From Atopococcus tabaci DSM 17538 (GTDB lineage Bacteria; Bacillota; Bacilli; Lactobacillales; Carnobacteriaceae_A), in the NCBI RefSeq assembly GCF_000429585.1, contig NZ_AUCD01000004.1, positions 1-64,000 of the forward strand: a stretch of 64,000 nt of DNA. Direction: 5' to 3'. A program made the translations under genes and the position numbers. The notes below the pieces were generated by a model. It saw only the letters and a list, made by a program, of their open reading frames with translations. It did not search any database and was not told where the DNA came from. Shown here one piece after another: positions 7,941 to 43,357 of this stretch; the stretch's first letter is position 1, and the number at the start of each line of letters is the position of its first letter.

Positions 7941-8348
7941 TTACGCTTCTTCTGAAGCAGTTGGTCCTTCAACGAATTCCAAGATTGCCATTGGAGCAGC
8001 GTCTCCGCGGCGTGGTTCAGTCTTCAACACGCGAGTGTAACCACCGTTGCGGTTAGCAAAGCGTGGTGCAATCTCATCGAACAATTTTTGCAAGACATTT
8101 TTTACAACAACTTCGTCATCCGATTCTTGAATGTCAGCAATTTCGTTACGAACAAAAGCAGCGGCTTGACGACGCGCATGCAAATCTCCGCGCTTGCCTA
8201 GTGTCACCATTTTATCAGCGATAGAGCTAACTTCTTTGGCACGGGCTTCTGTCGTTACAATGCGTTCGTTGATGATCAAATCAGACGTCAAGTCACGCAA
8301 CATAGCTTTACGCTGAGCGCTTTTGCGTCCCAATTTACGGTAACCCAT
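7941..8348 (-). CDS. rplQ: 50S ribosomal protein L17
   Basis: A 135-residue L17, which lies near the polypeptide exit tunnel of the large subunit. Conserved N-terminus [19 protein letters not shown] and C-terminal block [21 protein letters not shown] are present. It is somewhat longer than the roughly 120-residue Bacillus protein because of an acidic insertion ([10 protein letters not shown], residues ~73-82) and a short tail. It is the last gene of the alpha operon, 25 bases after rpoA. Confidence 0.98.
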
Positions 8349-8373
8349 TGTAGTAATCCTCCTTTGTTTCGTA

Positions 8374-9318
8374 TCAGTCTTCTTGGCGTAACTCCAAGTC
8401 GAGTTCTGCCAGTTTTAGTTTTACTTCTTCTAAAGATTTGCGGCCTAAGTTCCGCACTTTCATCATTTCGGCTTCCGTCTTGTTCGTCAATTCTTGAACC
8501 GTGTTGATTCCAGCACGTTTCAAGCAGTTGTACGAACGTACAGATAGATCCAATTCTTCGATGGTCATCTCAAGCATTTTTTCTTTTTGTGTTTCTTCTT
8601 TTTCAACCATGATTTCGGCCTCACGGGCTTCTTCAGTTAAGTTGACGAAGACACTCAAGTACTCTGTCATAATTTTGGCAGATAAACTGATCGCTTCTTC
8701 AGGAGAAATCGACCCGTCTGTCCAAATATCAAGAGTCAGCTTGTCATATAGATTCCGCTCACCGACACGCGTGTTTTCGACGTTGTAGTTTACACGGCTG
8801 ACTGGGGTATAAATCGAATCAACCGGCAAAACACCAATAGGCATATCATCATGCTTGTTGTGCTCAGCTTTGACATATCCTCTGCCTTTTCCAGCAGTCA
8901 TACGAGCATGGAAATGACCGCCTTCAGAAACGGTACAAATATATAGATCCGGATTCATGATTTCAACATCGCTATCGAAGATGATGTCGGAAGCTGTAAC
9001 CACTCCAGGACCTTCAACATCGATTTCGATGGTTTTTTCTTCGTCCGAATAAATTTTCAGTGCCAGTTTCTTGATGTTCAAAATAATTGCTGCTACGTCT
9101 TCAACGACGCCATCAATTGCAGTGAATTCATGTAAGACGCCATCAATTTGAATGCTTGTGACGGCTGCGCCCGGAAGGGATGACAAAAGGATACGGCGGA
9201 GGGAATTCCCCAACGTGGTCCCATAACCTCGCTCAAGCGGTTCGACAACAAACTTGCCATACTTGGCATCTTCACTGATCTCAACTGTATCAATTACCGG
9301 TTTTTCAATCTCGATCAT
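8374..9318 (-). CDS. rpoA: DNA-directed RNA polymerase alpha subunit
   Basis: A 314-residue alpha subunit that nucleates polymerase assembly. The N-terminal dimerisation domain (residues ~1-230) contains [20 protein letters not shown]. The C-terminal domain (~245-310) that contacts UP elements and activators contains [17 protein letters not shown] and [17 protein letters not shown]. The start MIEIEKP follows a purine-rich stretch. It lies between rpsK and rplQ as in Bacillus. Two alphas combine with the RpoB and RpoC proteins encoded farther along in the window. Confidence 0.99.
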
Positions 9319-9393
9319 CCTGTCATTTGACCCCTTTCAAAACGTTCAATCCAAGTGCGGCATTGTGCGCCTGCAGAAATGGAATGCCTCTCA

Positions 9394-9786
9394 TTAAACA
9401 CGGCGGCGTTTTGGAGGACGGCATCCATTGTGTGGAACAGGAGTTACGTCACGAATAGCAGTAACGTCCAATCCAGCTGCTTGTAGCGCGCGGATTGCTG
9501 CTTCACGTCCGGAACCTGGTCCTTTAACAGTAACATCTACAGATTTCATGCCGTTTTCCATTCCGCCTTTTGCTGCTGTTTCAGCTGCCATTTGAGCTGC
9601 AAATGGAGTCGCTTTACGAGATCCTTTGAATCCCAAAGATCCAGCAGAAGACCAAGAAACTGCATTTCCTTGTGGGTCTGTGATCATTACGATGGTGTTG
9701 TTGAATGTGGAACGAATGTGTGCAACACCATGCTCAATATTCTTTTTCACACGACGTTTACGAGTACGAGTACCTCTTTTTGCCAT
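9394..9786 (-). CDS. rpsK: 30S ribosomal protein S11
   Basis: A 130-residue S11 that sits on the platform of the small subunit near the E-site mRNA. Family stretches include [30 protein letters not shown] and the C-terminal [17 protein letters not shown]. The length equals the Bacillus protein apart from the tail. AGGAGG precedes the ATG closely. It is a member of the alpha operon between rpsM and rpoA, with a 75-base gap to rpoA. Confidence 0.98.
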
Positions 9787-9817
9787 GAAGGTTTACCTCC
9801 TTGCTCTTTATTATCGA

Positions 9818-36478: not shown

Positions 36479-37843
36479 TTATACCATCTTACCGGGGTCT
36501 GTGTAGCGGTCAAATTCTTCAGCTGTCAGCAGGCCCGAACGAACAGCTGCTTCTTTTAAGGTGAGTTGTTCTCTATGCGCTTTTTTTGCGATACGGCTGG
36601 CGTTGTCGTATCCAATGTGGGGAGACAAGGCCGTCACCAGCATCACAGACTGCTCTACCAAACGGGACATTGCTTCTTCTTCCGCTTCTATTCCCGCCAG
36701 ACATCTTTTATTGAAGCTGTCCAAACTGTCACTGAGCAATCGGATGCTCTGTAAAAAGGCATGAATGATCACCGGCATGTACACATTCAATTCAAAGTTC
36801 CCTTGGGAGGCGGCCACTCCAACGGCAGTGTCGTTTCCCATCACTTGCACACATACCATGCTCAGCGCCTCCGCTTGAGTGGGATTCACTTTGCCCGGCA
36901 TAATGGAACTGCCGGGTTCATTTATCGGAATGCTGATTTCTCCTAGCCCGCTTCGAGGACCGCTCGCCAGCCAGCGGATATCGTTGGCCATCTTCAATGC
37001 GTTTGCCGCCAAAGCTTTCAACGCGCCATGCACGTGGACAAACGCGTCTTTGCTGGATAAGCCATGGAATTTATTCGAACTTTCCTTGAAGTCCAGCTTT
37101 GTCCATCCCGCCAATCTGCTGACGGTTTTTTCAGCAAACTCTGCATGGGTGTTCAACCCCGTCCCTACCGCTGTCCCGCCGATCGGCAGTTGCAAAAGGT
37201 AGCGCAAAGAATCTTGAATCATCTGTGCGTTTTGGCGCATCATTTCCCGCCATCCGCTGATTTCTTGCCCGAATGTGATTGGTGTGGCATCCTGGAGATG
37301 CGTTCGTCCGATTTTGATCGTTGATTCGTGTGCTTCTTCTAATGTTTCCAACGTCTTCTGTACGTCTTCCAAAATCGGCAACAACCGACGCTGGATCAAG
37401 AGCGCACCCGAAAGATGCATCGCCGTCGGGAAGGTGTCGTTTGTGCTTTGCCCTTTGTTGACATCGTCATTGGGGTGAATCCAGTCTGCACCCTTTTTGG
37501 CGTTGGCGATGTGCGCAATCACTTCATTGAGGTTCATGTTCGTCTGCGTTCCACTGCCTGTCTGCCAAACTGGCAATGGGAATTCGTCCTCCCATTCTCC
37601 TTCTATTATCTCATCACACGCTTCACAGATGGCTTTTGCTTTTTGCGCATCCAGTTCCCCCAAGTCCGCATAGGTCGTTGCAGCCGCTTTTTTCACTAAC
37701 GCATAGGTAGTGATCAACTCTTCGGGCATTTTTTCCGTCCCGATCGGAAAATTATCTTTGCTCCTTTGAGTCTGCGCGCCCCACATCCGGTCCATCGGTA
37801 CGGCTACTTTTCCGAATGCATCTTCTTCGATTCGTTTCTTCAT
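36479..37843 (-). CDS. fumC: Class II fumarate hydratase
   Basis: A 454-residue homotetrameric fumarase interconverting fumarate and L-malate. The superfamily signature GSSIMPGKVNPTQAEAL carries the catalytic serine. Other blocks are GSGTQTNMNLNEVIA, the substrate-binding NDDVNKGQSTNDTFPTA segment and GRTHLQDATPITFGQE. It starts 30 bases after the PRD/EIIB regulator and is probably co-transcribed with it. Its neighbours include a second superfamily lyase in the amino-sugar locus, which suggests a role in consuming fumarate produced there (inference). Class II fumarase stands outside a full TCA context in this window. Confidence 0.96.
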   Translation of the reverse strand: MKKRIEEDAFGKVAVPMDRMWGAQTQRSKDNFPIGTEKMPEELITTYALVKKAAATTYADLGELDAQKAKAICEACDEIIEGEWEDEFPLPVWQTGSGTQTNMNLNEVIAHIANAKKGADWIHPNDDVNKGQSTNDTFPTAMHLSGALLIQRRLLPILEDVQKTLETLEEAHESTIKIGRTHLQDATPITFGQEISGWREMMRQNAQMIQDSLRYLLQLPIGGTAVGTGLNTHAEFAEKTVSRLAGWTKLDFKESSNKFHGLSSKDAFVHVHGALKALAANALKMANDIRWLASGPRSGLGEISIPINEPGSSIMPGKVNPTQAEALSMVCVQVMGNDTAVGVAASQGNFELNVYMPVIIHAFLQSIRLLSDSLDSFNKRCLAGIEAEEEAMSRLVEQSVMLVTALSPHIGYDNASRIAKKAHREQLTLKEAAVRSGLLTAEEFDRYTDPGKMV

Positions 37844-40405: not shown

Positions 40406-41764
40406 TCACAGTAGTGTTTCGGCCTTTTCAGCCGCTTTTAAAGCCATTTTTTCCGCCAGCTCGGGTGCCAAGCCGATATAGCTTCTAGGATCGATCAGTT
40501 CTTTCAACTCTTTGTCCGTAAAGTTTTCTGCAATCAACTCATTCGCTTTCAGGTTTGTATAGAAATCCTCTCCATACGCAGCCGTTTTGATCGCGATATC
40601 GTAGACCAAAGAGTGCGCTTGATCTTTTCCTAGCTTTTTCGCCATTTCCATCATCACATATTCACTGTTGTCCAAGCCTTTATTCCGCAACGCATTTTCC
40701 AGCATCCGGTCTTTGTGAGGATGCAGCGTACGCGTCAATTCTTCACACCGCAACAGGATTTCCGTCATCAGCTGAAGCGATTCTTCCAACAACCCATCGA
40801 ACAACATGTACTGACTGCTGTCCCCTTCGTACGGGCGGACGGAAGAATACGAACCGACTCCCGGCAGCGAGTACAGTTTTTGTGAGTTCGCGATGATCCC
40901 TTTGGCCAATTTCGGGTTGATTTTGTGCGGCATGGTGCTGCTTCCGACGGTTCCTTCTTTGAAACCTTCCGATACTTCCGCGATTTCTTCCAGACTCGTT
41001 TGGTAAACTTCCTCCGCCATCTTGTGGCACACATTGGCAAGCAGCGACAAATTCGTCATGTACTCCAATTTGTGTGTGTTGATATTCCGGGAAGGAACGT
41101 CCATCGGGTACATTCCCAGTAATTCGGCCACACGCTCTTGTACTTCAGGACCGACTTCCGGCATCGTGCTGAACGTTCCGACTGCTCCGCCCATCATAAT
41201 GCGGAAGACACGTTTTTCAGATTCTTTGAGGCGTTCGACACTGTCCAAAAATTCGCTGATCCACGCTGAGACCTTGTAACCATAGGTAATCGGGGTCGCG
41301 TGTCGGCCATGCGTTCTTCCAGGCATCACCGTGTGTGCATGTTCTTTTGCCAGTTCAGATAAATTATTCAAAATCTCTCCGCACAGCTTCAAGAATTTTG
41401 CATGGATTTGTTTCATGACATACAACTGCCCGCTCTGCTGGACATTCTGTGTCGTGATCCCGTAGTGGACATACTTCCCGCTGTCTTCTGGACAAGCTTT
41501 CACCAGCACTTTCAAAAACGGGACGAAACCATGGCCGATCTCCCGGTAAATCCGGTCCATCTCTTCAAAGTCGATGTTTTCCACCTTGGCGGATTCTTCA
41601 ATTTGCTGCGCCGCTTCTTCAGGGATGAATCCTTGTTCCGCCTGCGCCTTGGCCAGCGCAGCCTCAATTTTCAGCCACGCTTTGTATTTGGTCTTTTCTT
41701 CCAGCAGTTCCCGTATGCCTCTGTCATCAATTGTTTTACTTTTTGAGTCATAAAAAGCTCTCAT
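40406..41764 (-). CDS. Aspartase/fumarase-superfamily lyase (PurB-like)
   Basis: A 452-residue lyase of the superfamily that eliminates fumarate from C-N or C-O adducts. The flexible signature loop with catalytic serine is EGTVGSSTMPHKINP (residues ~271-285). RTHGRHATPITYG holds the conserved histidine region. It will be annotated as adenylosuccinate lyase, but several PurB motifs differ: HDVVAF is replaced by HGFVPF and TSSD by TTQN. It lies 15 bases after the PTS gene in an operon with nagA, not among purine genes. I infer a different adduct, perhaps of a sugar, as substrate. A genuine PurB remains possible if no other purB exists in the genome. Confidence 0.85.
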   Translation of the reverse strand: MRAFYDSKSKTIDDRGIRELLEEKTKYKAWLKIEAALAKAQAEQGFIPEEAAQQIEESAKVENIDFEEMDRIYREIGHGFVPFLKVLVKACPEDSGKYVHYGITTQNVQQSGQLYVMKQIHAKFLKLCGEILNNLSELAKEHAHTVMPGRTHGRHATPITYGYKVSAWISEFLDSVERLKESEKRVFRIMMGGAVGTFSTMPEVGPEVQERVAELLGMYPMDVPSRNINTHKLEYMTNLSLLANVCHKMAEEVYQTSLEEIAEVSEGFKEGTVGSSTMPHKINPKLAKGIIANSQKLYSLPGVGSYSSVRPYEGDSSQYMLFDGLLEESLQLMTEILLRCEELTRTLHPHKDRMLENALRNKGLDNSEYVMMEMAKKLGKDQAHSLVYDIAIKTAAYGEDFYTNLKANELIAENFTDKELKELIDPRSYIGLAPELAEKMALKAAEKAETLL

Positions 41765-41779: not shown

Positions 41780-43357
41780 TTATACCGTACTTTCCCTGCC
41801 AATTCCAACCAAGTAATCATCCACTTCGTTCCGGACGAATTCCACGTGCGGCCCGAACACTACATGAATGTGGTTCTTTTTAGGGAAGAAAATTCCTGAA
41901 GCTCCCGATCCTTTCAGTTTCTCTCCATCGACCAGCTTTTGGTCTTTCAAATCAATACGTAAGCGAGAAACACAGTTGTCCACATCCACAATGTTTTCTC
42001 TTCCACCTAACGATTCAATCACCAATGCGGCAATTTCCCCATACCGTTTTTCATTCAACAACGTCACGTCACGGTCCACATCTTCACGTCCCGGTGTTTT
42101 CGCATCCAGTTTCACAATCAAGAAACGGAAAGCGAAGTAGAAGATGACGAAGTTGGCGATTCCCAGCAAGACCAGGTTGAACCAGTTCGTGTTTTCATAG
42201 AGCAACCCGAAGATTCCGAAGTCAAAGATTGTTCCCCGGATGTATCCCATACGGATGTCCAAGAAGCTCATCGGAATGACCGTCAGTCCACACATCACAA
42301 TATAAATCAGATATAAAACAGGAGAAATGAACATGAACGAGAATTCCATCGGCTCAGTGATATTTCCTAAAAACGCGGTCAATACAACAGTTAAAATGAT
42401 TCCTTTTGCGATCTGTTTGTTGTCTTTATACGCAGTGTGGTACATCGCCAGCCCAATCGCCGGAATACGGAACAACGTGGTGAGCATCTGCCCCGGCGCC
42501 AAGTAAGGACTGATTTGCGGCATGACTCTTCCCCACGCTTCGTGAGTCGGTCCTAGTTCGAACAGCACTTTGTTCATGGCATTGAGGATTCCCACATACG
42601 ATTCTCCGTCAATCATCCAGACCCCTCCCGCTTCAGTGAAACGAACCACTGAAGACAAGACGTGGTGAAGACCAAACGGAATCAAGGCCCGGTTCAAGAA
42701 GTGGTACACTCCTGGACCGAATGTCGGGTTCATCATTATCGGAGAAATTCCGATCAGCATCCGCGTGAAACCTCCCCAAATAAACGGAACCACCAGTCCA
42801 ATGGGAATGGTGCACAAGAACGACAGAATCAAAACGGATTTTTTCCCGCCGAAAAACGCGAAGGCCAACGGAAGCTGCAGACGATAGAAACGATCTGTCA
42901 ACTTGGCAGCCAAAAGCCCCGAGATGATCCCTCCCGCCGCATCGACTTTCAGTGTCTGTATCCCCAGCACCATGCCCTGGCCTAATTCTCCCATGATTTC
43001 AGAATCGGCTAAGTTCCCGGTGGCATTGAGGTACACGTTCATCGTGATCAGCAAGGTCAGATAACTGACGATGGAGGCAAACACGGCGATTCCTTTTTCG
43101 TGTTTGGCCATCCCGTAAGCCACACCCATCGCAAACAAGACAGGGATGTTGCTGAAGATGATGCTTGAGATTTGTTGGGTGCTTCTCAAAATGAGCTGCA
43201 GTGTTTCATTTCCTAAAAACGGGAATTGCTCAATCATATATGATTGCGTAAAGGCCCCCATGAGCCCCATCAACATTCCTACCGGTGCCATAATTCCAAT
43301 AGGCAACAGCAGCGATCGCCCAAATACTTGTATTTGGTCTTTGAATCTTTCCCACAT
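41780..43357 (-). CDS. PTS transporter EIICB, glucose/maltose superfamily
   Basis: A 525-residue PTS permease. The EIIC membrane domain (about 1-410) has some ten hydrophobic segments, PFGLHHVLSS and the substrate-contacting NITEPMEFSF motif. The EIIB domain (about 435-525) carries the phosphorylation cysteine, near residue 462, in VDNCVSRLRIDL. No EIIA is attached, so a shared EIIA must serve it. The length and layout resemble MalX and the GlcNAc/glucose group, but the sugar cannot be assigned by sight. It lies 28 bases after nagA and 15 bases before the lyase, so an N-acetylated amino sugar or conjugate is the likely substrate. Confidence 0.92.
   Translation of the reverse strand: MWERFKDQIQVFGRSLLLPIGIMAPVGMLMGLMGAFTQSYMIEQFPFLGNETLQLILRSTQQISSIIFSNIPVLFAMGVAYGMAKHEKGIAVFASIVSYLTLLITMNVYLNATGNLADSEIMGELGQGMVLGIQTLKVDAAGGIISGLLAAKLTDRFYRLQLPLAFAFFGGKKSVLILSFLCTIPIGLVVPFIWGGFTRMLIGISPIMMNPTFGPGVYHFLNRALIPFGLHHVLSSVVRFTEAGGVWMIDGESYVGILNAMNKVLFELGPTHEAWGRVMPQISPYLAPGQMLTTLFRIPAIGLAMYHTAYKDNKQIAKGIILTVVLTAFLGNITEPMEFSFMFISPVLYLIYIVMCGLTVIPMSFLDIRMGYIRGTIFDFGIFGLLYENTNWFNLVLLGIANFVIFYFAFRFLIVKLDAKTPGREDVDRDVTLLNEKRYGEIAALVIESLGGRENIVDVDNCVSRLRIDLKDQKLVDGEKLKGSGASGIFFPKKNHIHVVFGPHVEFVRNEVDDYLVGIGRESTV

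Follow-up and report, generated by a model that had tools for sequence, protein, structure and literature searches.

The gene at positions 40406 to 41764 of the window, by which we mean the whole 64,000-nucleotide stretch of Atopococcus tabaci DSM 17538 that was analysed, probably encodes a fumarate-releasing lyase that acts on a phospho-sugar conjugate imported by a PTS and carrying a malyl or aspartyl group, as judged from its sequence and gene neighbourhood. Genes of its clade are annotated as ‘adenylosuccinate lyase family protein’, a name under which an apparently distinct role in sugar catabolism goes unnoticed. A single ORF of 452 aa fills the interval on the minus strand, and its surroundings are as follows.

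36479 to 37843, minus strand: class II fumarase gene fumC, 454 aa
37874 to 39433, minus strand: regulator with Mga HTH and PRD domains (BglG/Mga type), 519 aa
39546 to 40346, minus strand: YdjC/ChbG-like carbohydrate deacetylase, 266 aa
40371 to 40400, minus strand: terminator-like hairpin of 12 pairs with a T-rich tail, between the lyase and ydjC genes (consensus match only)
40406 to 41764, minus strand: PurB-like lyase of the aspartase/fumarase superfamily, 452 aa (assigned by domains, motifs and tree)
41780 to 43357, minus strand: PTS permease IICB of the glucose superfamily (malX/ptsG-like), 525 aa
43386 to 44642, minus strand: NagA-like amidohydrolase, 418 aa
44730 to 44769, minus strand: terminator-like hairpin upstream of the nagA-like gene (consensus match only)

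The minus-strand run therefore reads NagA-like, PTS IICB, lyase, YdjC-like, PRD/Mga-type regulator and fumC, the genes being separated in turn by 28, 15, 59, 112 and 30 bases, and the sugar-operon context proposed in the original prediction is borne out by the IICB, NagA-like and YdjC-like neighbours. The upstream hairpin is likely to be the end of the preceding uracil-permease transcript. No Rfam elements were found between 35000 and 47000, and promoter-like sites numbered 13 against 12.3 expected.

The lyase is a member of the aspartase/fumarase superfamily: it matches PF00206 (Lyase_1) at 126.9 bits against a cut-off of 27 and also contains an ADSL_C domain. According to PMC13411527, this superfamily is marked by the fingerprint GSSxxPxKxN, and nearly all of its members release fumarate. 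The catalytic-serine loop GSSTMPHKINP is intact in the query, as first described, and in the form GSSTMP[HQ]KINP it occurs in all 41 full-length clade members (the query and 40 others) which were compared with 23 PurB proteins of the same order. GHGFVPF, TTQN and GRTHG[RK] are likewise present in 41 of 41, the last as GRTHGR in 39, whereas HDVVAF, TS[ST]D and GRTHGV are each found in 23 of 23 PurB. The PurB blocks HDVVAF, TS[ST]D, ERDISHSSxER and the N-terminal RY occur in none of the 41. The replacement of HDVVAF and TSSD by HGFVPF and TTQN thus holds across the clade; GRTHGR is also as reported for the query, but the GRTHGQ given as its PurB reference was wrong, being found in 0 of 23. Given this conservation, the motif variants of the lyase are not due to chance.

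Residues S275–S276, K281 and N283 of the loop are kept in the lyase, as is the histidine of GRTHG (H152); PMC6301967 gives a loop serine and this histidine as the proposed base and acid of ADSL. Other positions depart from PurB, and Glu275 (numbering of PurB row L016) is replaced by Lys288. The arginine of the ER motif, which follows a conserved glutamate in PurB, CMLE and Tad1, is replaced by Gly314; Tad1 has Arg360 in this column, and entry 9h4g carries a mutation of it. Conservation of Arg310 reaches at least 95% in the PTS-linked clade; the three ABC-linked sister rows have it too, and the divergent G016 row has lysine. Since the ER arginine has gone and Arg310 is kept, either a succinyl group must be bound in another way or the enzyme acts on something other than a plain succinyl compound, and the missing arginine counts against our reading. 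Positions K232 and K288 are lysine in the PTS-linked clade, methionine and tyrosine/methionine in the ABC-linked sister rows, and histidine and glutamate in PurB; these two basic residues would fit a phosphorylated substrate.

Every NCBIfam lyase model matched by the query scores below its curated cut-off, including TIGR00928 (PurB; 256.2 bits versus 326.2), PRK08937 (309.5 versus 626), XcbD (301 versus 600) and the PcaB models (183.3 versus 355.75, and 226.3 versus 595), and seven of these sub-cut-off models match all 21 members of the family alignment at E ≤ 1e-20. Among the 67 rows of a tree, the query and 22 others make up one clade of PTS-linked lyases (support 100/100), to which three α-proteobacterial rows are sister (100/99), while the 23 PurB from its order group in a clade of their own (100/100) with the CMLE rows on the PurB side; the exact placement of long branches, notably the G016 row, is unsure. 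The phylogeny proposed as a check on the lyase hence puts it outside PurB.

The genome content bears on the same question. Three Lyase_1 members are encoded in the window genome, namely this lyase, its only fumC and one other (on C12), and neither a canonical purB over the cut-off nor purA or purH was found in this assembly (139 contigs, 99.86% complete). With purA and purH both absent, the organism is apparently auxotrophic for purines and has no use for PurB. By the criterion of the original prediction the lack of another purB would weaken altered specificity, but the accompanying absence of purA and purH points the other way. A relative, G009, carries this lyase together with purA, purH and a canonical purB; this purB is 33% identical to the lyase and shares a contig with purH. 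Were the protein a diverged adenylosuccinate lyase working in purine synthesis, it would make up for the lack of any other purB in the window genome, and B. anthracis PurB is the best PDB sequence match of the query; PurB also shares with the lyase its fold family, SS loop, GRTHG histidine, ADSL_C domain and 28–30% identity. This explanation is nonetheless extremely improbable given the missing purA and purH, the coexistence of both enzymes in G009, the separate clade, the complete loss of the PurB-specific blocks and the PTS gene that nearly always adjoins the lyase. A role as PurB substitute was rejected on the absence of purA and purH and on the phylogeny, and the changed substrate specificity first suggested for this protein is supported by its position outside the PurB clade, its sub-cut-off scores, the missing purA and purH, and the pair of lyases in G009. 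Among relatives, G020, G004 and G021 have purA but neither a canonical PurB (E ≤ 1e-20) nor purH, and purH is apparently in three pieces, one with stops, at G023:C1:71051-71912; the family seems to be losing its purine synthesis.

Orthologues of the lyase, 57–88% identical, are sporadic in Alkalibacterium, Bacillaceae, Vagococcus, Lactobacillaceae, Morganellaceae, Clostridia and plasmids, and almost always have a PTS permease of the glucose family as neighbour. A scan of genome contigs with short patterns, which makes its count a lower bound, found at least 38 loci at 60–88% identity, spanning Carnobacteriaceae, Bacillaceae, Enterococcaceae, Lactobacillaceae, Morganellaceae, Enterobacteriaceae, Clostridia and others. 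Only three of 398 genomes in a class-wide sample, the window's included, carry the gene (E ≤ 1e-80). It is also borne by two conjugative plasmids, one of Klebsiella aerogenes and one of Companilactobacillus, whereas a distant blastn search with L077, the gene of the Klebsiella locus, found no copy in 20,395 E. coli records. This is the distribution of a mobile accessory module. At L080 (G028, 8255-9795) the lyase ORF lacks its N-terminal part and lies beside a partial BglG-like gene with no PTS, and is probably a decaying copy.

A PTS permease match lies just upstream of the lyase in 37 of the 38 loci, although at L043 (Bacillus kwashiorkori) it is a 159-aa remnant; in the 38th, L078, the contig begins inside the lyase. 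The PTS also adjoins the lyase at the further loci L081, L083, L084 and L086, and L087 has a distant α-glucoside PTS (27%) several genes away. Regulators at the lyase loci are of the RpiR or PRD/BglG type. In a tree of the PTS proteins, an α-glucoside PTS outlier collapsed most forks. The α-proteobacterial sister rows have peptide-type ABC importers beside the lyase rather than a PTS, which weighs against our reading.

The second recurrent association is with fumarase and malic or malolactic enzyme. A fumarase gene lies within about three genes of the lyase, on the same strand, in the window and at L041, L042, L045, L065, L081 and L082, a count which leaves out fumC-like matches about 5 kb away on the opposite strand in L047, L049, L050 and L055, and a malic or malolactic enzyme is found near the lyase at L042, L045, L065 and L084. 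In Vagococcus lutrae the genes run PTS, lyase, malic enzyme, fumC, RpiR, and in Lacticaseibacillus daqingensis PTS, lyase, YdjC, malic enzyme, fumC. At one fumC per roughly two thousand genes, by our own estimate, adjacency of fumC and lyase in several lineages should not arise by chance, and since fumarase, malic enzyme or both adjoin the lyase in several lineages, fumarate is the likely product. Counting against this, most loci, those of the Morganellaceae/Enterobacteriaceae group, have neither fumC nor malic enzyme beside the PTS–lyase pair, and no malic enzyme was found in the window genome. Adjacent transporter clusters on a Cereibacter plasmid (L089, 3117-10389) contain a class II fumarase and two lyases of the superfamily.

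An AlphaFold2 model built from 18 sequences (mean pLDDT 74.7, pTM 0.78, with the SS and motif loops below 50) matched Tad1 best and CMLE next in Foldseek, with a Mesorhizobium fumarate lyase and PurB also among the matches and a probability of 1.00 to Tad1, CMLE and PurB; the model confirms the fold, all-helical as in the superfamily, and does not discriminate function. The two top matches, of a middling model, might suggest a Tad1- or CMLE-like decarboxylation or cycloisomerisation of a carboxylated substrate that yields no fumarate, the more so as these enzymes are of similar length and fold and the lyase shares TTQ and P82 with CMLE. The lyase and CMLE are in separate clades, however, TTQD is replaced by TTQN in the lyase, the counterpart of Tad1 Arg360 is missing, and such chemistry does not account for the recurrent fumarase and malic enzyme neighbours, so that we consider it unlikely.

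A fumarate-releasing route would begin with the adjacent PTS IICB, which would import and phosphorylate a sugar conjugate, to be trimmed in some hosts by the NagA-like and YdjC-like deacetylases. Serine- and histidine-assisted β-elimination by the lyase would then expel the sugar phosphate from its malyl (C–O) or aspartyl (C–N) group and free fumarate, which fumarase, or malic or malolactic enzyme in other hosts, could dispose of. The amino-sugar phosphate would enter glycolysis through NagA and NagB; for these steps the window genome encodes a further, canonical NagA elsewhere and, at C26, a NagB-like protein just under the cut-off. The MurNAc route is an instructive comparison, with its PTS MurP, its etherase MurQ, a SIS-domain protein that frees lactate, and its RpiR-type regulator MurR. 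Both would involve PTS import of an amino sugar, ether-bearing in the case of MurNAc, followed by removal of the acid, but the enzyme here is of the fumarase type.

The nature of the sugar is suggested by the NagA-like gene, which is present at the window, L041, L073 and L083 loci and on another contig in G016, so that a divergent NagA-like deacetylase accompanies the lyase in three lineages. The DGxH stretch of NagA is replaced in these rows by KQTGLTV (KQSGLTV in L083, KQTGMTV in L073), and all five proteins share features absent from nine canonical NagA rows (L094-L102). The operonic protein appears to be a specialised paralogue, acting most simply on the conjugate itself. Its presence in three lineages makes an N-acetylated amino sugar the probable sugar; should its amine be acetylated, that nitrogen cannot also carry the group released as fumarate, which would favour an O-linked malyl group. 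A Sagittula plasmid (L092, 1-9317) has GntR, SIS-domain and nagA genes followed by a peptide-type ABC importer and a lyase which is more distant (34–35%, in another clade), and may represent use of amino-sugar conjugates without a PTS.

The N-linked alternative, for which we would allow a fair minority chance, is that an aspartate-derived Heyns or Amadori compound, an N-(1,2-dicarboxyethyl)-hexosamine phosphate, is split to fumarate and amino-sugar phosphate. C–N lyases (cf. PurB and ArgH) are among the nearest characterised sequence relatives, the PTS and lyase alone would suffice, and the GlcN-6-P product would feed NagB, but the NagA-like and YdjC deacetylases are left without explanation and no link between Heyns or Amadori compounds and a lyase was found in open-licence PMC papers. 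GlcNAc-Asn, a common glycoprotein remnant, could also be imported by the PTS and lose ammonia from its Asn end, leaving a fumaramoyl sugar to be opened by an amidohydrolase. The NagA-like amidohydrolase within the operon would suit such a scheme, yet no amidohydrolase marker was found beside the PTS–lyase pair in most loci, and it strikes us as very unlikely.

Returning to the O-linked malyl group, the boldest candidate substrate is GlcN(Ac)-malate, with the enzyme acting as a GlcN(Ac)-malate 6-phosphate lyase. This core of bacillithiol would be shed by other bacteria and taken up by the PTS, the NagA-like and YdjC-like proteins would deacylate it, and the lyase would split the malyl glycoside into fumarate and amino-sugar phosphate; we regard so specific a proposal as a long shot. 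BshA was over the cut-off in one of ten genomes tested and, among the seven lyase carriers tested, in G389 only, a result that led us to reject internal bacillithiol turnover. With BshA rare among the carriers tested, carriers would be scavengers under the GlcN(Ac)-malate proposal. Were it true, the enzyme would be, to our knowledge, the first fumarase-type lyase to act on a glycoside and part of the first dedicated catabolic route for the bacillithiol core, horizontally spread across Bacillota and Enterobacterales.

Reactions of the superfamily described in the consulted portion of PMC13411527 involve water, ammonia, arginine, AMP, nitrite, thiols and lactonisation, with no sugar leaving group among them, and no description of a PTS-linked lyase module of this type was recognised in open-licence PMC papers. 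If the fumarate-releasing sugar lyase is correctly read, sugar phosphate would be a new leaving-group class for the superfamily, and the mobile PTS–lyase module would serve gut, food and marine bacteria in the uptake of a nutrient, offering a testable route to an environmental sugar conjugate.

A close precedent for such a catabolic lyase, likewise picked out by its gene neighbourhood, is the S-(2-succino) lyase (2SL) of yxe loci, which according to PMC9706529 acts on a thiol substrate and releases fumarate. Membership of the same superfamily and the shared fumarate product could suggest that our enzyme is an S-(2-succino) or other thiol-succinate lyase, but the 2SL system uses amino-acid ABC import and an acetylation step where the present lyase has a sugar PTS. 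The window operon is without yxe-type partners (acetyltransferase, amino-acid ABC transporter), a likely 2SL identified by context (L108) is in another clade, and a thiol substrate is accordingly most improbable. The L108 locus, on a Pantoea piersonii plasmid (5944-11351), has an annotated purB with a GNAT acetyltransferase, an amino-acid ABC transporter and an amidohydrolase, and this purB is probably a misannotated 2SL of a yxe-type locus.
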